NCBI GenBank assembly: GCA_902518355.1
Contig: CABYFY010000009.1
Coordinates: 1-64,000 of the forward strand
Direction: 5' to 3'
From: an uncultured Bacteroidota bacterium
GTDB lineage: Bacteria > Bacteroidota > Bacteroidia > Flavobacteriales > Flavobacteriaceae
Length of the DNA stretch: 64,000 bases
Each line of letters opens with the position of its first letter. The stretch's first letter is position 1. A model generated the notes under the pieces. It was given only the letters and a program-made list of their open reading frames with translations. It had not been told where the DNA came from and made no database searches. Below are positions 11,079-53,953 of this stretch, piece by piece. A program made the position numbers and the translations under genes.

Positions 11079-13231
11079 TGTTTGATTATCTTTTTAGTTA
11101 CCGTTTTTGTGTCAGTCATAGAGTTTATCTTTAATAAATAAGTGCCTTTTTGAAATTTAGATATGTCAATTAAAACTTCTTTATTATCACTAAACCTATC
11201 GATTAATTTTTGACCCTGTAAATTAAAAATCTTCACATTATAATTCGAATAATCAGGTAGAATCAAATTGATTTGATCTTCTGCTGGATTAGGGAATAAC
11301 TCAACCTGAAAATCATTATTGTTTACAAGATTAAACTCACTGTTAGAAAGAGATTCATCAATATCAAAGACTAGTGAAGTTAAAGACAATTCGGGTAGAG
11401 TTGTTGTAAAATATCTGTTATAATAATCTATTTGATTTACACCCAAGGATGAAAACTCCTCAGAATCATTGTTGGTGGTTAAAAAAGTTTCAACTGATAT
11501 TGCGCCAAGGGGAACATCAACTGAAAATTCTTTTTCATTTCCCTCATTGAATATTTGAACTATTACTTTCGATTCATCATATGAAATAAATCCTGCGACA
11601 AAAACTCCATTTTCATCACTTGAGGCAGAACTGATTAGGCTATAATCTTTCTTTACCAAGTTTGCAAAATGTTTAAATGAATGATACCTTTTTGGTAAAA
11701 TTATTTCACCCGTAGGAGTCCATGCAACTAAGCTAGAATAACCATTATTATCGGCTTCCTCATAAAATAAATGTAGCATATAAGCAGTAACTCCACCTTC
11801 GTTAAATCCTCTTATTATCCACTTAATATAATTTGCGGCATCTGTCATTGATTGATCAGTACTATTGAGATTAGCCGATTCAGTTACCCATACTGGTTTG
11901 CCATTAGCCGCTACTTTTAATGCATTCCAATTAGCATTATGATTGGGGTCTGCATAAGTATGAGTGCCTACAATATCAACAGCTTCCTCAACAGCTGAAT
12001 TTTCAAACATAGTATTAATATAATTTGTAGCAGAGGTTCCGGAATTTTGAGATTCAACCCTGAAACATTCAGGTGAAACTATATTAATATTATCCAAACC
12101 AGAATTTGACAACCTAGCGTTAAGATTTATTAATATACTTGATAATTCTGAAGGTGTTGTATTCATAGATTCATAGGAGACTTCATAGTCAGGTTCATTT
12201 GTGGGTGAAATTGCAGTGACTTCAATTCCATACCTTGACTCCATACCATTTAAAAATGCAACAAGAAATTCACTAAATTCTGATTCTCCTCCACTAATCA
12301 GAGTGCCTCCGCCATTATGTTGACCATTTGTTTTAAGCCAGGCTGGGGCGCTGTTACAGTTGCCAATTACATGATCAAATCCATTAATACTTTGACTAAA
12401 AGCATTTTGTAAGGCTTCACCAACATATCTAGTTCTCCAACTATTTGGATCGCTATCGTATCTTGTCCAGTCAAGTTGTGATTCGTCTAAGCTATACGGA
12501 TCGTCATTATCATTTTCAGGCTCTAAATCATGATAAACAAAAAACCTAATCATATTAACCTCAAGATCATTAAAACAATATTCTTCAATCTGCTCTCTAA
12601 ACGAGTCGTTTAATACATAGAGCTGCTCTGTTCTTCTTTTAATTCCTGCACCAAAACCATCAACTACTTGTAATTTTTCTTCAGGTTGAAAGGTTATTCT
12701 ATCACCGGGGGAAATACTCACCTCATCTAAAAAGTAAGTTACGTCAGATTGCATGTACCAAAACCTTACCCTATTGTTATCACTAGAATGTTCGACGGTA
12801 AAAGTGTGAGAATATCTTTGCCATTCATTTGTTATCCAAATATTTTGTCCCTGATAGCTGCCAGAAACATCGGATTGAAAAACAAGTTTCACTTGCCGCG
12901 AGTCTGCTCCTTGAACTTTGGCAAAAAAAGTAACTGTATATTTTTGACCAGCAATTACTTGAAAAGGATATTCACTTTTTGAGCTAACATGCCATCCATT
13001 TGCACCCAATGAATGTACTTCACACTTAAGAGCTTTTGTACTTCCACCAACCAAATCATTTGTTTCAATTGAGTATGTTGCCTCCCCGCCTTCATTGGCT
13101 TGATGACTCCAATATTGAAACTCATTATTTTCTATATCTTCTAGAAAGCCATTGGCAAGAGGTAATTGATTTTGTGAAATCAAAGGACTCAAAACCAAAG
13201 TCATTAAAGCTGTTATTATTAACTTTCTCAA
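11075..13231 (-). CDS. Secreted CBM-GH30 glycoside hydrolase with T9SS sorting domain
   Basis: The 718-residue enzyme has a signal peptide (about 1-20), a CBM4/9-like domain (about 25-175), a GH30-type (beta/alpha)8 barrel with its side beta-sandwich (about 176-625) and a T9SS sorting domain (about 643-718, LFPNPAEDQ). Catalytic glutamates expected for clan GH-A are visible: the acid/base in TNEPDY (Glu346) and the nucleophile in VWVTESAN (Glu451). GH30 includes xylanases, beta-1,6-glucanases and beta-1,6-galactanases; the subfamily cannot be set by eye. As the only clearly recognised glycosidase in the visible PUL, it probably cuts the backbone at the surface. Its CBM is paralogous to the free CBM at 3501-4037. 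Confidence 0.88.
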   Translation of the reverse strand: MRKLIITALMTLVLSPLISQNQLPLANGFLEDIENNEFQYWSHQANEGGEATYSIETNDLVGGSTKALKCEVHSLGANGWHVSSKSEYPFQVIAGQKYTVTFFAKVQGADSRQVKLVFQSDVSGSYQGQNIWITNEWQRYSHTFTVEHSSDNNRVRFWYMQSDVTYFLDEVSISPGDRITFQPEEKLQVVDGFGAGIKRRTEQLYVLNDSFREQIEEYCFNDLEVNMIRFFVYHDLEPENDNDDPYSLDESQLDWTRYDSDPNSWRTRYVGEALQNAFSQSINGFDHVIGNCNSAPAWLKTNGQHNGGGTLISGGESEFSEFLVAFLNGMESRYGIEVTAISPTNEPDYEVSYESMNTTPSELSSILINLNARLSNSGLDNINIVSPECFRVESQNSGTSATNYINTMFENSAVEEAVDIVGTHTYADPNHNANWNALKVAANGKPVWVTESANLNSTDQSMTDAANYIKWIIRGFNEGGVTAYMLHLFYEEADNNGYSSLVAWTPTGEIILPKRYHSFKHFANLVKKDYSLISSASSDENGVFVAGFISYDESKVIVQIFNEGNEKEFSVDVPLGAISVETFLTTNNDSEEFSSLGVNQIDYYNRYFTTTLPELSLTSLVFDIDESLSNSEFNLVNNNDFQVELFPNPAEDQINLILPDYSNYNVKIFNLQGQKLIDRFSDNKEVLIDISKFQKGTYLLKINSMTDTKTVTKKIIKQ

Positions 13232-36425: not shown

Positions 36426-36899
36426 TTATGATGGGTCGACTAAAAATAGTGGCTGGTCAAATTCAACTGGACTTGAGTCATCCACTAAGATTTTGACAAT
36501 TTTTCCAGAAACTTCAGATTCAATGTCGTTAAATAGCTTCATAGCCTCAATTACGCAAAGAACCGAACCTTCCGAAATAGAATCACCAACTTCAACAAAA
36601 TTTGGTTTGTCTGGTGAAGGCTTGCGGTAAAAAGTACCAATAATAGGTGATTTTATTGTAATAAAATTTGAATCTTCTTCAACATTTGCTTGAGAAGGGG
36701 GGGGCACAGAGGGTTCTGGCGAAACTGGCTGGGTTTGAAAAACCTGTTGGGGAAAAACTGGTGTCTCTTGAACAACAACAGGCTGTGAACCATCATTAGT
36801 TTTAATAGTGATTTTTACATCTTCCATCTCGAGCTTGACTTCGCTTGCGCCTGACTTAGCAACAAACTTTATGAGGTTTTGTATCTCCTTAATTTTCAT
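36426..36899 (-). CDS. accB: Biotin carboxyl carrier protein
   Basis: The 157-residue protein carries biotin between the carboxylase and transferase subunits. The N-terminal helix (MKIKEIQNLIKFVAKS) is followed by a proline/glutamine-rich linker (about 40-72) and a biotinyl domain (about 80-157). The biotinylated residue should be Lys121 in EAMKLFN; leucine replaces the usual second methionine. It begins the accB-accC-dehydrogenase operon, facing a 515-bp AT-rich gap. Confidence 0.95.
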   Translation of the reverse strand: MKIKEIQNLIKFVAKSGASEVKLEMEDVKITIKTNDGSQPVVVQETPVFPQQVFQTQPVSPEPSVPPPSQANVEEDSNFITIKSPIIGTFYRKPSPDKPNFVEVGDSISEGSVLCVIEAMKLFNDIESEVSGKIVKILVDDSSPVEFDQPLFLVDPS

Positions 36900-37414
36900 A
36901 ATAATTAATTAAAGTGTAAAAATCACAACTTTTTTATCAAAAAACAACAAAAAACATGCTTAAAATGAATAAAACAACATAAAAAAGGATAAAAATGAGC
37001 TAAAAACCAGAAAAATTGGGATGAAAGAAAGTAGATTTAAATTGTAAATTTGATAATTATCAAAAAACACAGAAAATTAAACTAAAAATGAATAAATATT
37101 GCTGATTATGCCCAAAAATACAGTTTTTTTAAGAAAAAAATGACTAAAAATACAATATTAAAGACTTTATATTTTATACATTTTTTTGCATATTTCATAA
37201 TGCAAATATTTCTTCATTTTTTTTATAAAAATCAGCTTTTTTTATATAAAATACGTATTTTTTGATTAAAAGTCGCTTTTTTTTTAATCAAAATTCAATT
37301 TTTTTGGTTTTTTTTATCACACTTTTTATTTAAAAAAAATTATGAATATTATAAAAAATTAACATTTTAAATGGGTATTCACTCAAAAAACAACTAAAAC
37401 ATTATATTTAAAGC
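36900..37414. other. Extremely AT-rich intergenic region with an A-rich to T-rich switch
   Basis: This 515-bp gap separates divergent accB and a small membrane protein gene. On the plus strand the left half (to about 37165) is dominated by A-tracts. The right half (about 37165-37345) is dominated by T-tracts of 5-9 bases, many about a helical turn or two apart, as in curved DNA. No coding frame of note, tRNA or clear DnaA box was found. The promoters of accB and the rightward gene must lie inside it. Confidence 0.6.
37260..37293. repeat. 12-bp perfect inverted repeat in the AT-rich gap
   Basis: TTTTGATTAAAA (37260-37271) and TTTTAATCAAAA (37282-37293) are exact reverse complements separated by 10 bases. 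It could form a hairpin or be a protein-binding site. It lies in the T-rich half, about 120 bp before the small membrane protein gene and about 360 bp from accB. Confidence 0.5.
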
Positions 37415-37636
37415 ATGAAGACAAATAAAGCTTTAATAATAATAACCATTTTAGGATGGTTAAATATTGGCTTGTTTTATTCGCTCTATCTTCTGAAAAT
37501 AGAAAATGTAATTATTGGTGTATTTAGAGAGCTGACTATTATACCCTCCTATTTTTTAGGCATTCTCAGCCCCACAATCTTATTGTTAAGACTTGCCTAC
37601 AAATTATTATTAAAAATTATTGATAAGAGAACTTAG
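37415..37636 (+). CDS. Small predicted membrane protein (73 aa), unknown
   Basis: The 73-residue frame has two hydrophobic stretches (about 7-27 and 41-62), a basic N-terminus (MKTNK) and a basic tail (KIIDKRT). This is a helical-hairpin layout, with LGWLNIGLFYSLY and ILSPTILLLRLAY. The TATATTTA element 15 bp upstream resembles the -7 box. It ends 14 bp before the convergent rpmF gene. No family recognised; its coding status rests on spacing, start context and membrane pattern. Confidence 0.5.
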   Translation: MKTNKALIIITILGWLNIGLFYSLYLLKIENVIIGVFRELTIIPSYFLGILSPTILLLRLAYKLLLKIIDKRT

Positions 37637-37650
37637 CTAGATACAACAAA

Positions 37651-37848
37651 CTAAGCTTCAACTTCAGAATTGTTGTCTAAAAGCACTTTGCCCCTGTAGT
37701 ATAGTTTACCTTCATGCCAATATGCTCTATGGTAAAGATGGCTTTCACCGGTTTTTGAACATACCGAAATCTGAGGCATTTCAGCCTTATAATGTGTTCT
37801 TCTTTTGTCTCTTCTAGTTTTTGACGTTTTTCTTTTTGGATGTGCCAT
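37651..37848 (-). CDS. rpmF: 50S ribosomal protein L32
   Basis: The 65-residue basic protein starts [20 protein letters not shown], the L32 signature, with a later [25 protein letters not shown]. The zinc cysteines of some L32 proteins are reduced to one visible Cys. It sits 11 bp after the DUF177 gene, the standard pairing in many bacteria. Confidence 0.97.
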
Positions 37849-37859
37849 TGTAAACTATT

Positions 37860-38378
37860 TTATTTTTTTAAACTTTTAAGCTGTTCCCATCTTGGGTCAG
37901 CAAAATTACTATTTTCTTTTGGTTTAAGATCTTCCAATATATCTAATATTTCTGACTTCAAGGTTCCGTCTTCAACACCAGGATGAATTCTCTTAGGCGG
38001 CAAAGATAATACAATCAATTCAAATATATATTGATCAACATAAAGCTTATGCTCTCCGTGAGGTAAAACTAGTATTTCATCATCCTCATCATTGTAGTCT
38101 TGTCCAAACTTTACAACAAGTGAGGCTTTGTATTTTACCTGATAGTCAAAGGGCTCATTTGTCAAGTCACAATTGAGGTTAACCCCACCAGTTATAACAA
38201 AGTCTAGTTCAAGCAATGTTGATTTTTTTGTCAATTCAATGTCAATATTTACAGCAACATCGTTAAAATCAGAAAAATTAAATCTATCAAAGAACTTTTT
38301 ATCAGCATTAAAATTAAATTGGTGACTTCCGATTTTTAAACCTGCAAACTCAATTTTATATTTGCTATCAGACTTCAT
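37860..38378 (-). CDS. DUF177/YceD-family protein, 23S rRNA accumulation
   Basis: The 172-residue protein has the DUF177 pattern: a beta-rich domain with NCDLTNEPFDYQV (C...C replaced by a single Cys), acidic stretches (DYNDEDDEILVLPHG), and a C-terminal LPPKRIHPG-like block. Members are encoded just before rpmF and are linked to 23S rRNA maturation or 50S assembly. A -7 box at 38399-38406 drives the pair. Confidence 0.88.
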   Translation of the reverse strand: MKSDSKYKIEFAGLKIGSHQFNFNADKKFFDRFNFSDFNDVAVNIDIELTKKSTLLELDFVITGGVNLNCDLTNEPFDYQVKYKASLVVKFGQDYNDEDDEILVLPHGEHKLYVDQYIFELIVLSLPPKRIHPGVEDGTLKSEILDILEDLKPKENSNFADPRWEQLKSLKK

Positions 38379-48298: not shown

Positions 48299-48751
48299 TT
48301 ATATTGACAAAAAATAAATTATTGTTGGCGGAAAAAGCAGCGATGAAAGATAGGCCACCCATTTAGGGTGGTTTTTTTTTGAGTGCCAGTAAGCTAAGAG
48401 AATTAATGGAATTTGAAACGGCATTCTAATTAAAGCATCCTTCTGTGAAATTCCTAATAAGCTTTGAGGGGTCTCTGAGACATAAAGATATATGTTTGCG
48501 GGAAATACGGATACTAGCAAAAATATCAGCAAATAAGCCCCCGCTTTTCTTGATTTTGTTGAAAGAATCGCTGCTCCGCCAACAACTTCAATCAAGCCTG
48601 TGAAATATACTAGAAATAATTTAGAGGGTAGTTGAGGCGGTACAATATCTAAAAAATATTGTGGATCTGTGAAGTGTCTAATTCCAATAAAAATATACAT
48701 AATACTCATTACGTAAATCGTTAATAGCTTGTATTTTTTTATAAAATTCAT
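48299..48751 (-). CDS. DoxX/MauE-like small membrane protein
   Basis: The 150-residue protein has four hydrophobic helices and an ATG at 48751. Motifs IFIGIRHFTDPQYFLDIVPP and YFTGLIEVVGGAAILS match the DoxX/DoxX-like group, thought to be parts of redox or quinone-linked membrane systems. Its stop is adjacent to that of the convergent M1 peptidase gene. It lies just outside the left border of the putative tRNA island, 29 bp from the terminator hairpin. Confidence 0.88.
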   Translation of the reverse strand: MNFIKKYKLLTIYVMSIMYIFIGIRHFTDPQYFLDIVPPQLPSKLFLVYFTGLIEVVGGAAILSTKSRKAGAYLLIFLLVSVFPANIYLYVSETPQSLLGISQKDALIRMPFQIPLILLAYWHSKKNHPKWVAYLSSLLFPPTIIYFLSI

Positions 48752-48775: not shown

Positions 48776-48800
48776 AAAAAGCCCTTCATTTTGAAGGGCT
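48776..48800 (-). terminator. Terminator reading leftwards, probably the ancestral tRNA terminator
   Basis: AGCCCTTCA (48780-48788) and TGAAGGGCT (48792-48800) form a perfect 9-bp stem with a 3-base loop. On the minus strand it is followed by TTTTTG, so it ends leftward transcripts. It lies 6 bp beyond the tRNA 3' fragment in the tRNA's direction. Confidence 0.85.
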
Positions 48801-48806
48801 TTAAGT

Positions 48807-48830
48807 GGTGGTCCCACCTGGACTCGAACC
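48807..48830 (-). repeat. tRNA 3'-end fragment, left attachment site (attL/attR-like)
   Basis: This 24-bp stretch matches the 3' end of the tRNA(CAU) at 53430-53453 at 23 of 24 positions and in the same orientation; the one difference is A at 48822 versus G at 53445. It covers the T-loop, the 3' side of the T-stem, the 3' acceptor strand and the discriminator base. The rest of a tRNA is absent. This is the usual footprint of site-specific integration into a tRNA 3' end. Confidence 0.8.
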
Positions 48831-48835
48831 CATTA

Positions 48836-49073
48836 AATGTAGTATCCTCTTTAATATCAATATTTAAACACACAACCTCAATAAATACAATACTTTAACA
48901 AAACTTATTTAATTTTTCTGTATTGGATTAAAATGCATAAAATAGCATATAATTGTCCGATTTGTTGCCAATTATATAATTTTATTATATTTTATTGTGT
49001 TCACTCTGAAAAATTCAAAAATTGTTAGTATTTATTTAATATTAAAGAAACATTTATAATTGATATTAGATGT
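48836..49073. other. AT-rich non-coding left end of the island
   Basis: This stretch between the tRNA fragment and the PAP2 gene has no coding frame of note. It holds one GTTGCCA copy (48964-48970) within the 12-bp repeat shared with the right end. Nothing else could be supported. Confidence 0.5.
48961..48972 (+). repeat. Island end repeat, left copy
   Basis: TTTGTTGCCAAT is identical to 53353-53364 near the other end of the island and in the same orientation. It could be an arm-type recombinase site or chance. Confidence 0.4.
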
Positions 49074-49724
49074 GTGATTAAGTTTCAACAACATTTGATT
49101 TTTTATAGCCTCTTAACACTAGTTTTATCCCCATTATTACTTCTACCTAAAGGACAGATTGTTTATAACTTTAACTTGTTTGAATTTCCATATTTCTTTA
49201 ATTTTTTTAAGTATATCACTTATTTAGGGGATGGTATATTTATTCCAATCTTATTAATTTTATTTTTTTTTGTTAGTAAAAAAAGGAAGAGAAATTTCAA
49301 GCTTATCTCATTTATTATTTCATGTATTTTAATGGTTATAATTGTTTGGAGTTTAAAACATTTAATTTTTGATGATTTGAGTCGTCCTTTTAACTTTTTT
49401 GTTTCTAAACCTGAATCATGGATAATAAATGATTTTAATTTAAGTTTTCATAAACATAAAACTTTTCCATCTGGACATACAGCTACAGCTACTATTTTTG
49501 GATTATATTTAATGGAGTTTACCCAAAATAAGTTTAAAAAATATTTTATTTACCTTATAATACTTATTGTTGGAGCTTCCAGAATTTACTTATTTCAACA
49601 TTTTTTTATTGATGTTTTTATTGGATTTTATGTAGGATTTTTATCAGTTGCCTTGTCAAGAATAATTTTATTATACTACATGAAATCAAAAATTAAAAAA
49701 TATTTTATATCCAATTTTCAATAA
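49074..49724 (+). CDS. PAP2-family membrane phosphatase
   Basis: The 216-residue protein (GTG start at 49074) has about six hydrophobic helices and the full PAP2 triad: K-x8-RP in KHLIFDDLSRP, the PSGH of FPSGHTATA, and SR-x5-H-x3-D in SRIYLFQHFFID. Such enzymes act on undecaprenyl pyrophosphate, phosphatidic acid or lipid A phosphates. In this island, dephosphorylation of lipid A or recycling of the lipid carrier would fit with the neighbouring sugar transferases. Codons are strongly AT-biased. Confidence 0.88.
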   Translation: MIKFQQHLIFYSLLTLVLSPLLLLPKGQIVYNFNLFEFPYFFNFFKYITYLGDGIFIPILLILFFFVSKKRKRNFKLISFIISCILMVIIVWSLKHLIFDDLSRPFNFFVSKPESWIINDFNLSFHKHKTFPSGHTATATIFGLYLMEFTQNKFKKYFIYLIILIVGASRIYLFQHFFIDVFIGFYVGFLSVALSRIILLYYMKSKIKKYFISNFQ

Positions 49725-49735
49725 CTAGTTAATTA

Positions 49736-50572
49736 TTATGATGTTAAGCGTTTTGGTTTTGCAGTATATATAATACCAAATAATGAAACAAAAGCAGTAA
49801 TTAAAGTAAACATTAATGCTAATAAAACAAGATTTTCTTGATCAATAGTTGTTAAAGATGAAACATTCAAAAAGATGAACTCTCTTATACCAACTCCACC
49901 AACTGATAATATCGATAGAATTGATGAAATTAAAAAAATTGATATTAAAAAGAGTTCATCGGTGTTTATTTCAAAAGATTTAATTATTAAGAGCATGCTA
50001 ATAATTTGAAGTATTTGTATAAGAATTGAATATAAAAAAGATTTAAAAAAAATATTTCCAGACTTAAAAATTATTGATGAAATATAATAACCAAAAAAAA
50101 CTAATATTATAAATAAAAATATTTTCAAAAAGATATTAATAAATAGTATTTTTTCATCTATTATTAATATCAAAAGAGAAAAAATTGCTCCGTAACCTAT
50201 TGCTCTATCTAAAAATATTGATTTAATTAAACTTTTAGTTTTAAACTTTTTCTTAAGTAATATTACTTTATAAGCATCACCGCCTATTCCTCCTGGTAAA
50301 AAAAAATTATAAAACATTCCCAATAAATAAAGCTTATTATTTGTTGATAGTTTAATATCGATTCCTGTTTTTTGGAAAATATAAAGTAATCTTATTGATG
50401 AGAGGAATTGAGATAAAATAAAAAAAATTGATGAAATAATAATTAGAAAAAAATCTAATTTATATAAGTTATAAGAAATTAAATTTATGTCAATTTGAAA
50501 AAAAGTATAAAGGATTAGCGATAAAGAAATTAATAAAGGCAGGTATTTTCTGTATAATTTTTGTTTAATCAC
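49736..50572 (-). CDS. Flippase-like/LPG synthase TM-domain membrane protein (UPF0104-like)
   Basis: The 278-residue protein has about eight hydrophobic helices. Family motifs are FLPGGIGGDAYKVILLKK, DRAIGYGAIF and SVGGVGIREFIFLNV. This family (AglD/UPF0104/LPG synthase transmembrane) often accompanies glycosyltransferases and is proposed to move lipid-linked sugars. It overlaps the GT2 gene by 8 bp, so the two are translationally coupled. Confidence 0.85.
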   Translation of the reverse strand: MIKQKLYRKYLPLLISLSLILYTFFQIDINLISYNLYKLDFFLIIISSIFFILSQFLSSIRLLYIFQKTGIDIKLSTNNKLYLLGMFYNFFLPGGIGGDAYKVILLKKKFKTKSLIKSIFLDRAIGYGAIFSLLILIIDEKILFINIFLKIFLFIILVFFGYYISSIIFKSGNIFFKSFLYSILIQILQIISMLLIIKSFEINTDELFLISIFLISSILSILSVGGVGIREFIFLNVSSLTTIDQENLVLLALMFTLITAFVSLFGIIYTAKPKRLTS

Positions 50573-51506
50573 TTTGGTGTATCTTTCTTATTTTATATGG
50601 TTTTTTATTTTGAGATTCATAATATGTTTTCATCATTAAATCATATGTAATTCCTATACTAAAGATTTGTATACCAATGATAACTAACATAATAGATAAA
50701 ATTAACAAAGGTCTTCCCCAAATATCTTGACCCATAATTCTTATTACAAAAAAATATAAACTTAATATAGAACCAGTTGAAAAAATTATAACTCCAATAC
50801 TACCAAAAAAATATATTGGTTTTTGTAGGAATTTTTTTTGAAAAAGAATCAAAAGAAGATCATTAATAACTTTGAAGATTCTACCAAGTCCGTATTTAGA
50901 GTATCCAAATTTTCTAGGATTATGTCTTACTGGAACTTCCGTAATTCTTGCTCCATCTAAATATGCTGCAAGGTTAATAAATCTATGCATCTCTCCATAT
51001 AAATTTAAACTTTTAGCAGTTTCTTTTTTAAAAACTTTTAAAGCACAACCTTGATCACTAATATTTAATCTAGTTAATGTTCTTATTATAAAATTAGCTA
51101 TCCTTGAGGGAATTATCTTGATAATTGAATCTTTTCTTTTGACCCTAATTCCAGTAACAATATCCCAATCTCCCTCTACTGCTTTATTTAACATCGGTAA
51201 AATATCATTTGGATCATTTTGAAGATCTCCATCTAGAGTTATAATATAATCACCTTTTGCAATATCAAAACCAGCAGCAAGTGCTAGACTCTGTCCATAA
51301 TTTTTGGAAAGCTCCACAAGTATTACTTTTTTTCTAATAATTGATTTTATTACTTCACGAGAAGAGTCTGAGGATGAATCATCAACATAAATTATTTCAA
51401 AGTTATATCCTTTTAAAGCCTTAAGAATTTTTTCATTTAATATAATAATACTGTCCTCTTCGTTAAAGATAGGGATAACTAATGATAGCATTTTATTAAC
51501 AGACAT
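50565..51506 (-). CDS. GT2 polyprenyl-phosphate glycosyltransferase (DPM1/GtrB/ArnC-like)
   Basis: The 313-residue protein has a GT-A catalytic domain (1-225) and two C-terminal helices (about 230-290). Sugar-nucleotide motifs are YVDDSSSDSS and TLDGDLQNDP (DxD-type), and QGCALKVFKKE follows. This layout makes a lipid-linked sugar from a nucleotide sugar and undecaprenyl phosphate. It is divergent from the ArnT-like gene (39 bp apart), which would use such a donor. The probable route is GT2 makes lipid-sugar, flippase-like protein moves it, and the ArnT-like enzyme transfers it. Confidence 0.9.
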   Translation of the reverse strand: MSVNKMLSLVIPIFNEEDSIIILNEKILKALKGYNFEIIYVDDSSSDSSREVIKSIIRKKVILVELSKNYGQSLALAAGFDIAKGDYIITLDGDLQNDPNDILPMLNKAVEGDWDIVTGIRVKRKDSIIKIIPSRIANFIIRTLTRLNISDQGCALKVFKKETAKSLNLYGEMHRFINLAAYLDGARITEVPVRHNPRKFGYSKYGLGRIFKVINDLLLILFQKKFLQKPIYFFGSIGVIIFSTGSILSLYFFVIRIMGQDIWGRPLLILSIMLVIIGIQIFSIGITYDLMMKTYYESQNKKPYKIRKIHQSD

Positions 51507-51545
51507 TTATCTCTAAATATTTAATTTACAAAGCTTTATTTTTAC

Positions 51546-53141
51546 ATGTTTAATAACGTAAACTTATTATCAAGAAATTATTACGAAATAACTCTCGTAA
51601 TCTTATCATTATTTATTCTGATTTTGTTTTTGGGTTCTCATCCCATAATTATTCTTGATGAGTCTAAAAATGCTGAAGCTGCTAGAGAATTTATAGTTAC
51701 TGGACAATATATGATACCTTATTTTAATGGTGAAATAAGAGTAGATAAGCCACCTCTCCATTACTATTTTATGAACTTAGGCTATAATATTTTTGGAATT
51801 AACTCCTTTGGAGCTAGATTCTTTTCTGCAATTTTTGGTTTATTTACAATATGGTTATCATTCAGGTTTGCTAGAAAATATTTTAATTGGAACATAGCAA
51901 TTCTTACATCTTTAATATTTATTTCTTCGTTTTTATTTATTCAGGAGTTTAAGTTAGCTGTTCCAGATCCTTATCTTATTTTTTTTATTTCAGCTTCTCT
52001 TTTTTCATTTTACAGTTATCATTTAAATAGGAAAAGAATAAGCTTATTATTGTTTTATATTTTTATAGGTCTTGGGATTCTAACAAAAGGTCCAATTGCA
52101 TTGTTTTTAATAGGTGTAATTGTCGTAATTTTCTTAATTATTACAAGAAATGTTAAAAAAATATTTCAGTATTATCCAATTTTAGGATTATTAGTTATTT
52201 TTCTTATTTCTTCTCCATGGTATATAAATATTCACTATTTAACGGATGGAATATGGACAGAGGGGTTCTTCTTAAAACACAATGTATCAAGATTTACTAA
52301 TACAATGGAAGGGCATGGGGGTTCAATTTTTAAAACTTTAGGATTTATTTTACTTGGGTTATTTCCATTTTCTATTTTTATACCTCAGTCATTGATACAT
52401 ATTTTCACTCGAGTTAGAAAACAAGAAAATTTATTTTTATTAATTATTTGTTCAGTTTTTACATTATTTTTTGGAATTTCAGCTACAAAGCTTCCAAATT
52501 ATACTATGCCATCATATCCTTTTTTTGCAATGGGAATAGCTGTGTTTTTAAATTATTCTATCAAAAAAAATAAAGAAAAAGCTTTAATACCAGCCCAATT
52601 AATAATTGTGATTATAGGATCTTTAATCCCTTTAATTGTATATATCTATTCTATTAATAACGAAGATGTACAATATTTATTGGATCATATAGTTTTATTG
52701 TCATTTTTATTTTTTGGGTCAATATTTAGTCTTTTCTTTATAAGAAAATTTAAATACTGGTTTATAATTATCTTTGTTACTTGGTCAACATTTACTTTTA
52801 CTTTAAATGGTTTTGTGTTTCCTAGTATTTCTAAGAGTAGTCCTGTCATTGAATTTAAAAAAGTTTTTAATGATAAACATGAAGTAATTGTCTATGATAG
52901 AATGGATCCATCTTTTCCATTTAATTTTGAAAAAATATACACAATAGTTCATTCAATTGATGATATTGAAAGCGAATTACTAAAAAATCCTAAATTACTA
53001 ATTTTAACCAACTCAAAAAAAGCTGATTCTTTAGAATCTCTTCAAAACATTAAATTAATTTTTTCAAAAAAAGCAATATTTGAAAACAATCAAACAAAAG
53101 TTTTTAAGCTAAAAAATAAAAAAACCTTTATAAACAATTGA
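51546..53141 (+). CDS. ArnT/PMT-like lipid-linked sugar glycosyltransferase (GT39/GT83-like)
   Basis: The 531-residue polytopic protein has about 12 hydrophobic helices and a small C-terminal domain. The first loop has DESKNAEAAREFIVTGQYM and VDKPPLHYYF, equal to the catalytic-loop signature (DExR-AE, KPPL) of ArnT-like and PMT-family enzymes. These use polyprenyl-phosphate sugars to modify lipid A or proteins on the outer face of the inner membrane. It starts by ATG at 51546 and ends 2 bp before the epimerase stump. AT-rich codon use is shared with the island. Confidence 0.88.
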   Translation: MFNNVNLLSRNYYEITLVILSLFILILFLGSHPIIILDESKNAEAAREFIVTGQYMIPYFNGEIRVDKPPLHYYFMNLGYNIFGINSFGARFFSAIFGLFTIWLSFRFARKYFNWNIAILTSLIFISSFLFIQEFKLAVPDPYLIFFISASLFSFYSYHLNRKRISLLLFYIFIGLGILTKGPIALFLIGVIVVIFLIITRNVKKIFQYYPILGLLVIFLISSPWYINIHYLTDGIWTEGFFLKHNVSRFTNTMEGHGGSIFKTLGFILLGLFPFSIFIPQSLIHIFTRVRKQENLFLLIICSVFTLFFGISATKLPNYTMPSYPFFAMGIAVFLNYSIKKNKEKALIPAQLIIVIIGSLIPLIVYIYSINNEDVQYLLDHIVLLSFLFFGSIFSLFFIRKFKYWFIIIFVTWSTFTFTLNGFVFPSISKSSPVIEFKKVFNDKHEVIVYDRMDPSFPFNFEKIYTIVHSIDDIESELLKNPKLLILTNSKKADSLESLQNIKLIFSKKAIFENNQTKVFKLKNKKTFINN

Positions 53142-53143
53142 AT

Positions 53144-53266
53144 ATGAAAAATGTCTTAATCACTGGGGGAGTAGGGTTCATTGGCACGAACTTAGCTGAG
53201 TTTTTGTTAGAACTTGGTTACAATGTCTATTCATTAGATAATTACTCTTTTGGGCTGGAAGCCTAA
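53144..53266 (+). pseudogene. Truncated NAD-dependent sugar epimerase (N-terminal 40 codons)
   Basis: Forty codons starting at the ATG encode the first beta-alpha-beta unit of a GalE/WbpP-like epimerase: MKNVLITGGVGFIGTNLAEF then LDNYSFG, with the NAD-binding GGxGFIG. A stop follows at 53264 and the remaining 270 or so residues are missing. It lies 2 bp after the ArnT-like gene, so a once longer surface-sugar operon was cut here. Confidence 0.8.
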
Positions 53267-53352
53267 AGATCGATTAAATAATTATATTCAAAATTTATTA
53301 CTTTGAGAAACCTACTTAAACAGGGGGGGTCAATTTCTCTAATTTTAAGGGT

Positions 53353-53373
53353 TTTGTTGCCAATATGTTGCCA
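53353..53373 (+). repeat. Island end repeat, right copy, with a second GTTGCCA
   Basis: TTTGTTGCCAAT (53353-53364) repeats the left-end copy. GTTGCCA occurs twice here, at 53356-53362 and 53367-53373, exactly 11 bp apart, about one helical turn. This spacing is suggestive of recombinase arm sites. Confidence 0.4.
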
Positions 53374-53383
53374 GACAAGGAAT

Positions 53384-53423
53384 AAAAAAACCGCAACTAT
53401 ATGTAAAACAAATAATTACGGTT
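53384..53423 (-). terminator. Terminator of the present tRNA(CAU)
   Basis: Arms 53389-53400 and 53412-53423 pair over 12 bp (two G-T pairs) with an 11-base loop. On the minus strand they are followed by seven T. It lies 9 bp beyond the tRNA 3' end. Confidence 0.8.
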
Positions 53424-53431
53424 TTTCTGGG

Positions 53432-53505
53432 TGGTCCCACCTGGGCTCGAACCAGGGACCAAATGATTATGAGTCATCTACTCTAACCAACTGAGCTATA
53501 GGACC
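53432..53505 (-). tRNA. tRNA with CAU anticodon (elongator Met or Ile2)
   Basis: The 74-base tRNA reads GGTCCTA at the 5' acceptor strand (pairs with TGGGACC), a D-arm with AGCTCAGTTGGTTAGAGT, an anticodon loop CTCATAA (anticodon CAT), a T-arm with CCTGG-TTCGAGC-CCAGG and discriminator A. CCA is not encoded. The CTCATAA loop fits both elongator Met and lysidine-type Ile2. Its last 24 bases form the right copy of the island attachment repeat. Confidence 0.93.
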
Positions 53506-53515
53506 AAATAGTGTG

Positions 53516-53551: not shown

Positions 53552-53953
53552 TTAAATTTCTTCACAGAGCTCAACAAGAACTCCGTTAGTTGTTTTTGGG
53601 TGTAAGAAGACAATCATCTTATTATCTGCTCCTTTTTTCGGGGTTGTTGAAATAAACTCAAAACCCAAACCTTTAAGCCTTTCAACTTCATTTTTTATGC
53701 TGTCTACGTGAAGTGCTAAATGATGTATGCCTTCTTTGCGTTTTTCAATGAACTTTGAAATAGGCGACTCCTCGGATGTAGCATGAAGTAATTCTACTTT
53801 TTGATCTGCTACTTTAAAAAAAGAGGTGGTAACCCCTTCTGACTTAACATCCTCAGTTTTGTATGGTTTCTCACCTAAAAGTTTTTCAAATAGTTCTTCA
53901 GATTTTTTAAGGTCTTTAACTGCAATTCCAATATGCTCAATTTTCTTAATCAC
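53552..53953 (-). CDS. mce: Methylmalonyl-CoA epimerase
   Basis: The 133-residue glyoxalase-fold enzyme interconverts (R)- and (S)-methylmalonyl-CoA in propionyl-CoA metabolism. The N-terminal metal His is in IEHIGIAVKDL, a second His in IHHLALHVD, and the metal Glu near the end in VLVELCEE. Length is normal. The start is GTG at 53953. The -7 box begins only 12 bp upstream, so the mRNA is probably nearly leaderless. No mutase is in view. Confidence 0.93.
   Translation of the reverse strand: MIKKIEHIGIAVKDLKKSEELFEKLLGEKPYKTEDVKSEGVTTSFFKVADQKVELLHATSEESPISKFIEKRKEGIHHLALHVDSIKNEVERLKGLGFEFISTTPKKGADNKMIVFLHPKTTNGVLVELCEEI

Follow-up and report, generated by a model that had tools for sequence, protein, structure and literature searches.

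An integrase-less island at the tRNA(CAU) gene of an uncultured Flavobacteriaceae bacterium, with ends resembling those of an integrase-bearing element

The island and its site at the tRNA

The stretch of DNA analysed here, called the window, is 64,000 nucleotides of contig CABYFY010000009.1 (GCA_902518355.1) from an uncultured Bacteroidota bacterium of the Flavobacteriaceae, whose assembly is 1.42 Mb at 79.7% completeness (labelled G000 in our comparisons). Within it an island of ~4.6 kb, at 48831-53427, abuts the 3' end of a tRNA gene. A sequence-only reading of the window had described a 24-bp direct repeat of the tRNA 3' end enclosing AT-rich DNA with envelope-sugar genes and no recombinase, and each of these elements was borne out. 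We think it likely that the island is a non-autonomous integrative element, moved by a tyrosine recombinase of the type we call int1 and movable only in trans.

The two repeat copies, GGTGGTCCCACCTGGACTCGAACC at 48807-48830 and GGTGGTCCCACCTGGGCTCGAACC at 53430-53453, agree at 23/24 positions, and the assembly holds no further copies. ARAGORN places a single tRNA in the window, also recognised by Infernal, with a CAU anticodon at 53428-53506 on the minus strand; the right copy is its 3' end, while the left copy, on the same strand, is a 3' piece alone. A 111-bp query spanning the tRNA 3' end gave two matches in the whole assembly, both of them the repeat copies (E 1.3e-4 for the left), and a 23-mer allowing at most one mismatch was single in 19/21 genus genomes and double in G000 and G014. 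The tRNA may be an elongator Met or a lysidine Ile tRNA; another CAU tRNA of this genome presumably resembles the initiator, judged by commonly known features.

Outside the left copy lie a hairpin (48776-48802, minus strand, -17.7 kcal/mol), which we take to be the native terminator of the tRNA shifted to the far end of the island, and a DoxX/MauE-like gene (48299-48751, minus strand; Pfam MauE/DoxX matches weak and below cut-off). On the other side the tRNA is followed by a glyoxalase-family gene (53552-53953, minus strand; PF13669, 4e-23). Both neighbours are conserved. Relatives were located through an FtsX-like neighbour, found in 59/60 genomes with our own included, and locus stretches from 19/20 same-genus relatives were compared, G004 being left out with a distant FtsX match alone. 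The right neighbours, including the glyoxalase-family gene, adjoin the tRNA in 19/19 stretches and the DoxX neighbour does so in 17/19, those of G014 and G001 ending too early. The close relative G005 has the empty site that had been predicted, namely the DoxX stop, 54 bp including the equivalent terminator hairpin immediately after the tRNA, and then a single tRNA with no fragment.

Compared with G005, both repeat copies are chimeric. The left copy has chromosomal sequence outside (the terminator and the encoded CCA) and island sequence inside, and the right copy has island sequence outside, with CCC replacing CCA, and the chromosomal T-arm inside. This is the pattern that site-specific recombination would require, and we regard insertion by that route as practically established; together with the empty site it supports the earlier proposal of integration at the tRNA 3' end by a tyrosine recombinase. 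The single mismatch is an A in the left copy. The left ends of related elements likewise read GGAC, so that the A would fit an island-borne base; it does not prove that origin, because GGAC is also found in the tRNA of G017 and at locus L209. From the chimeric copies and the mismatch, the crossover would lie within about GTGGTCCCACCTGG. It should also be noted that the CCA encoded at the tRNA terminus in G005 is replaced by CCC next to the island (53428-53431), and the insertion therefore altered the 3' end of the tRNA gene.

Both flanks were available in 18 genus genomes, the window included. A core fragment (13 bp, at most two mismatches) stands at the far end of the spacer in five (G000, G015, G010, G009 and G018), the last four holding inserts that differ from that of the window at the identical point. 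All five carry at the outer end a terminator hairpin resembling the one in relatives without an insert (weakest in G018, -9.8 kcal/mol), and a second hairpin beside the tRNA. Among the 13 spacers without the fragment G005 is empty and most contain genes common to relatives, which are therefore probably old residents; G002 has two mutually similar genes absent from all other spacers, and G019 has a G015-type terminator beside the tRNA and a 99-residue open reading frame (ORF) of its own. Thus the neighbours are conserved and the spacer is variable, rather than the same gene order recurring in all genomes, an outcome that the sequence-only reading would have counted against itself.

The island has a G+C content of 24%, and the spacer from DoxX to the tRNA 0.243. 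Its four full-length genes span 0.205-0.266 in G+C and 0.129-0.176 in G+C at third codon positions (GC3), the latter used in place of codon adaptation, and in both measures every one of them falls below all 39 ORFs of 150 residues or more elsewhere in the window (G+C mean 0.345, standard deviation 0.021, minimum 0.301; GC3 mean 0.260, standard deviation 0.026, minimum 0.189). The composition of the island is foreign. From left to right the genes encode a PAP2 phosphatase resembling undecaprenyl-diphosphatases (49074-49724, plus strand; PF01569, 6e-16; NCBIfam SepP, 3e-9, below cut-off), a flippase-like membrane protein of the LPG_synthase_TM/TIGR00374 type (49736-50572, minus strand; PF03706, 3e-22; TIGR00374 above cut-off), an ArnC-like polyprenyl-phosphate glycosyltransferase of family GT2 (50565-51506, minus strand; PF00535, 5e-30; ArnC structure 9bhc, 5e-44) and an ArnT/PMT-like glycosyltransferase (51546-53141, plus strand; PF02366, 4e-24; ArnT structure 5ezm, 2e-28). 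Despite the ArnC and ArnT structure matches, the GT2 and PMT proteins are both far under the NCBIfam equivalog cut-offs. A sugar epimerase/dehydratase stump of 40 N-terminal residues closes the series (53144-53266, plus strand; GDP_Man_Dehyd, 8e-8, positions 1-31 of a 332-position profile). Judged by these families, the cargo may form a module in which a sugar is loaded onto a lipid carrier, flipped and transferred to a surface acceptor, and which would alter the cell surface.

The Pfam matches of the island (PAP2, LPG_synthase_TM, GT2, PMT and the epimerase N-terminus) include no recombinase, and PF00589 detects two proteins in the assembly (303 and 297 residues), both on other contigs and probably Xer-like by their size. 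The four full-length proteins gave no PADLOC match at E 0.001. A donor of the cargo was sought through the ArnT-like protein: 119 relatives at E 1e-40 yielded our own genome and one other at 44% identity, and, with the limit set at E 1e-60, 395 genomes from the order yielded our own and one at 41%.

Ends in common with an integrase-bearing element

At its right end the island carries an arm-like site, the 19-mer TGTTGCCAATATGTTGCCA (53355-53373, plus strand), a pair of repeats 55 bp before the tRNA. The exact 19-mer occurs at 79 loci of the GTDB collection, and at 24 of these the 3' end of a full tRNA on the opposite strand lies 55-58 bp away (10 Leu(CAA), 7 Leu(TAA) and 7 CAU). A script that accepted either a hairpin motif or a tRNA in place classed 35 loci as right ends. 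The other 44 comprise five left ends found by script, L182 (a left end missed by the script motif), some Bacteroidetes loci that are cut off or hard to class, and others, in a different context, that come from Clostridia and a few further groups. These last were not counted in the family because the preceding sequence differs and no tRNA lies within 400 bp; in gut Clostridia (L189, L196, L238 and others) the 19-mer follows ATCGGATATGGGCTATCCGATTTTT, possibly as part of a separate conserved element. A looser repeat pattern was present in 17/299 family genomes, several with the exact 19-mer next to tRNAs. The complete right end, that is the 19-mer, a hairpin and a tRNA 3' end at 55-58 bp, recurs in other marine Flavobacteria-type genomes, and the window has all three parts.

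The hairpin lies between the 19-mer and the tRNA (53387-53425, minus strand) and forms a 12-bp helix across 35 aligned right ends, these being the window and 34 loci, with L188 added by eye and L179 and L228 excluded as identical there to L166 and L199. In the same helix, 95.2% of 420 cells are paired on the tRNA-sense strand versus 81.2% on the opposite strand, and consensus folding gives -13.0 versus -3.5 kcal/mol. The largest strand gap at one position is a pair that is U-G, U-A or C-G in 35/35 sense sequences and unpaired in 27/35 on the opposite strand. Each of the 500 shuffles, and likewise the slid controls, gives a smaller share of paired cells than the alignment itself, whichever strand is taken; pairs changed on both sides are not above shuffles, 440/500 of which reach the count for the sense strand. 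This difference between strands is an argument that the hairpin works in RNA running off the tRNA, where it would terminate transcription as a replacement for the displaced native terminator. It suggests how such insertions preserve the transcription unit of the tRNA. Across 85 bp the window right end is 94.1% identical to that of L209, where the RbfA protein is 47.9% identical to that of the window and the cargo gives no match. Similar right ends despite diverged RbfA and unmatched cargo indicate that the end module travels.

The left end of the island (48831-48990, with GCATAAAATAGCA at 48935-48947) ties it to the genome G443, since blastn aligns 48800-48972 to locus L210 of that genome with 71% identity over 176 bp. 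It includes an arm-like site, TTTGTTGCCAAT, as a single repeat (48961-48972, plus strand). In L210 the core is followed by the spacer motif, the 19-mer and an intact tyrosine recombinase gene, int1, whose product of 419 residues matches PF00589 (8e-15) and PF13102 (4e-9), with Arm-DNA-bind_5 at 0.004, below cut-off. On contig G443:C27 the element is complete from core to core, about 21 kb, in the order core, 19-mer, int1, DUF6617, HTH_17, BT4734-like_N and DUF3987 proteins, cargo, 19-mer and core; a second integrase, int2, follows it. By position and repetition, the 19-mer is a plausible arm site of the integrase. Assignment of the island to the int1 family by its ends, as a member without the integrase, appears well supported.

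Intact int1 is present in 1/7 left ends compared, that of L210. N-terminal pieces remain in L191 and L182, L219 lacks a suitably placed ORF of 70 residues, and no int1 was found in L206, L212 or the window. As no int1 gene was found behind its left arm, the window island is described as a non-autonomous derivative and not as an autonomous member. Loci L236 and L221 have a 19-mer right end joined through the core to a left end like that of G015, and L212 has a G015-like right terminator ahead of a 19-mer-type left end; thus two kinds of cassette stand in tandem, in both orders. In L181 and L200 a 19-mer right end is joined to a tRNA-like stretch and int2.

To follow the candidate helper, int1 was searched at E 1e-15 in the 29 genomes that hold 30/79 of the 19-mer loci (28/41 classed ends, plus L172 and L220). 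Matches came from 8/29 genomes, with none in the other 21: one identical, in the genome of the query, three remnants (97 residues in G450, a short frame with stops in G447 and broken pieces in G466) and four distant integrases at 26-38% identity. Many of the searched genomes are incomplete, and the helper may for that reason be commoner than counted. Among 378 family genomes at E 1e-60, a limit that would hide short remnants, five had matches at 35-40% identity, and the fetched loci of those five contained no 19-mer.

Mobilisation in trans and its alternatives

On our preferred reading, an int1-type tyrosine recombinase would have recombined an attP, in which arm repeats flank a tRNA 3' end, with the corresponding end of the tRNA(CAU) gene. 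The tRNA's own terminator came to lie 4.6 kb away as a result, and the right end of the element would replace both it and the lost 3' end, keeping the tRNA functional. The integrase gene, which lies directly behind the left arm repeat in the autonomous relative, is absent from the island, an Arn-like sugar-transfer set occupies the element, and further movement would require an int1-type integrase from another element. That int1 itself performed the integration we infer from the shared ends.

That integrase-less cassettes do pass between species at this tRNA is indicated by the insert common to G015 and G010. It is 96.3% identical across 671 bp (~0.67 kb), and five neighbouring genes show 57.9-77.1% DNA identity between the same genomes. 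Among ORFs of at least 45 residues it holds one, of 133 residues with a weak VanZ match in Pfam, and no integrase; 3/402 positions of this ORF differ, all synonymously (399/402 identical). The near-identity of the insert in diverged hosts points to transfer of an integrase-less cassette between species at tRNA(CAU). Although both assemblies are drafts, both copies sit within contigs with host-specific genes on each side, which argues against an assembly artefact. In G019 the 35 bp adjoining the tRNA (L049:3135-3169) are identical to the end of this cassette, although that spacer lacks a core fragment.

Several points weigh against our reading. The G015/G010 cassette has repeats of another type (AGGTTCGGA), so that it demonstrates mobility for integrase-less cassettes and not for the window island. 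The left end of the window has one arm repeat against two in each of the other six examined, although the double repeat was itself the means of finding those six, which are to that extent selected, single-repeat ends being missed; an 11-bp gap in otherwise matching sequence suggests that the window lost one. Together with the single repeat, the truncation of the terminal epimerase would fit a remnant in decay. Finally, no int1 was found at E 0.001 in any of 21 genus genomes (56-86% complete), and thus no candidate helper within the genus; the same query does recover G443.

The single repeat and the truncated epimerase keep alive the chief alternative, a dead remnant, in which an autonomous island, inserted by its own integrase, later lost that gene together with one repeat of the left arm and some cargo, and is now immobile by any route. 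In its favour are also the int1 remnants in G450, G447 and G466, and the fact that the window left end ceases to resemble L182 near the expected start of the integrase. Against this, the remaining four genes have uninterrupted full-length reading frames, conservation is good in the core, the hairpin and the right arm, the composition shows no amelioration, and tblastn of int1 against the island gave chance-level matches alone (E 5 and worse), with no int1 remnant among them. We consider a dead remnant the less probable account, though a serious one. The sequence-only reading had offered both possibilities, decayed remnant or mobilisation in trans. The evidence favours an integrase-less non-autonomous element of a definable family, for which mobilisation in trans would be the probable route.

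A phage satellite is very unlikely, and a prophage relic can be rejected. Attachment at a tRNA is typical of satellites and prophages, and one of the two IMG/VR contigs with the 19-mer, L150, has it ~90 bp before a tRNA-Gly (L150:4176-4717), followed by a frame, broken off where the locus ends, that by eye resembles the start of an integrase and has no Pfam match. In the other, L151, the 19-mer lies within overlapping frames on a contig with long phage-like ORFs. By a rough estimate two contigs are near chance level for so large a collection. By Pfam the island itself has no phage gene, nor any of the phage-derived packaging, regulatory or replication genes that mark satellites; peptide patterns from int1 matched four IMG/VR stretches, none of them confirmed, and of 12 records in a phage collection that match int1 none reaches 60% identity, with 32.5% the highest value among the 10 listed.

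Exchange of the block by homologous recombination between related strains through their flanking genes, with the tRNA fragment incidental, would draw on the conservation of those neighbours, which could recombine, but five genomes have their junctions within the tRNA 3' end and the G015/G010 insert is far more alike than its flanks, and we reject it. Drift between the copies of an old tandem tRNA duplication, to which the tRNA piece at each end might point, is dismissed almost entirely, given the empty site with a single tRNA in G005 (barring a precise loss of the entire block there), the foreign composition and the same end module at other tRNAs elsewhere.

Relation to known systems and other insertions

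Cassettes targeted to tRNAs, with repeated tRNA ends, have been described in 'Candidatus Actinomarinales' (PMC7771536) and Alteromonas (PMC4119200). The window island agrees with these additive flexible genomic islands in its conserved target, the same tRNA with the same neighbours across the genus loci, and in its presence, absence and differing content among relatives (G005 empty, G015 with another insert). The Actinomarinales island likewise carries envelope sugar genes, and the available text of that paper does not contain the word integrase; neither account, in the portions available, describes an end module or a helper. By comparison, the ends of the window island have a defined repeat, a hairpin specific to one strand and a counterpart in an element with an integrase. 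A search of the literature returned no title describing this end module, though we make no claim that it is absent from print. As far as the available accounts go, tRNA cassettes of streamlined ocean bacteria have been reported without the enzyme that moves them, and here both ends of one island link it to an element whose integrase is intact, which offers a specific candidate for the helper and a specific attP.

Tycheposons, reportedly described in Prochlorococcus by Hackl and colleagues in 2023, have a 'deep-branching' recombinase and hallmark genes. In an account of Methylophilaceae, tycheposons are given as 4-200 kb and marked by a tyrosine recombinase, and an island with tRNA-Lys repeats is noted (PMC10872708, as far as available). 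Like them, the window island sits at a tRNA gene of streamlined marine bacteria and carries cargo genes; unlike them, it lacks a tyrosine recombinase of its own. The islands of Riemerella anatipestifer, also of the Flavobacteriaceae, likewise lie beside tRNAs and have direct repeats; for these, a plasmid with integrase and attP was integrated experimentally (PMC6764341, PMC9745183). From the available descriptions those islands carry their own integrase, and their 53-bp and 19-bp repeats differ in sequence from those of the window. A variable region next to tRNA-Arg has been noted in planktonic Flavobacteriaceae (PMC4164334).

The island may also be compared with hitch-hikers. Cis-mobilizable elements (CIMEs) are non-autonomous units of the same sort. 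Helper-dependent hitcher elements, among them clusters of attC sites lacking integron-integrases (CALINs) and miniature inverted-repeat transposable elements (MITEs), are treated together in PMC11389934. Like CALINs, MITEs and CIMEs, the island has kept its recombination ends without a recombinase; on the partial descriptions to hand, CALINs use attC and integron integrases and MITEs use transposases, whereas the presumed helper here would be a tRNA-targeting tyrosine recombinase. We would tentatively extend this, as a conjecture with somewhat less than even chances, to a general scheme resembling integrons but built on tRNA-targeting tyrosine recombinases. In it, marine Flavobacteria would have in common a stock of non-autonomous cassettes that land at tRNA genes, each bringing a movable end composed of arm repeats, a replacement terminator and a tRNA 3' end; cargo would be swapped between such ends, cassettes would stack at one tRNA, and the enzyme would come from rare autonomous elements. 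If our reading of the island is right, part of the flexible genes in these small genomes would sit on minimal hitch-hiking cassettes invisible to searches for integrase genes, and these would include surface-sugar genes that might influence phage attack.

Some further observations were made along the way. The window has a second G+C dip, to about 0.26, at 36501-38000. The insert at the same CAU tRNA in G009 (L042:3373-5311) encodes an EcoO109I-like endonuclease and a C5 methyltransferase with a MerR-type domain, and this restriction-modification insert has GGAACCCC repeats near both ends. In G014, two contigs of one assembly (L055 and L073) end in or just past tRNA(CAU) and differ in their neighbours, a sign that the population may be polymorphic at this site. 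A second hotspot of the genus lies near tRNA-Asn(GTT), where int2-type integrases are found in G020 (L161:9318-10361) and G008 (L162:8805-9866) and fragments of one in G011 (L163:9380-9538 and 12353-12553), in all three together with many small genes.

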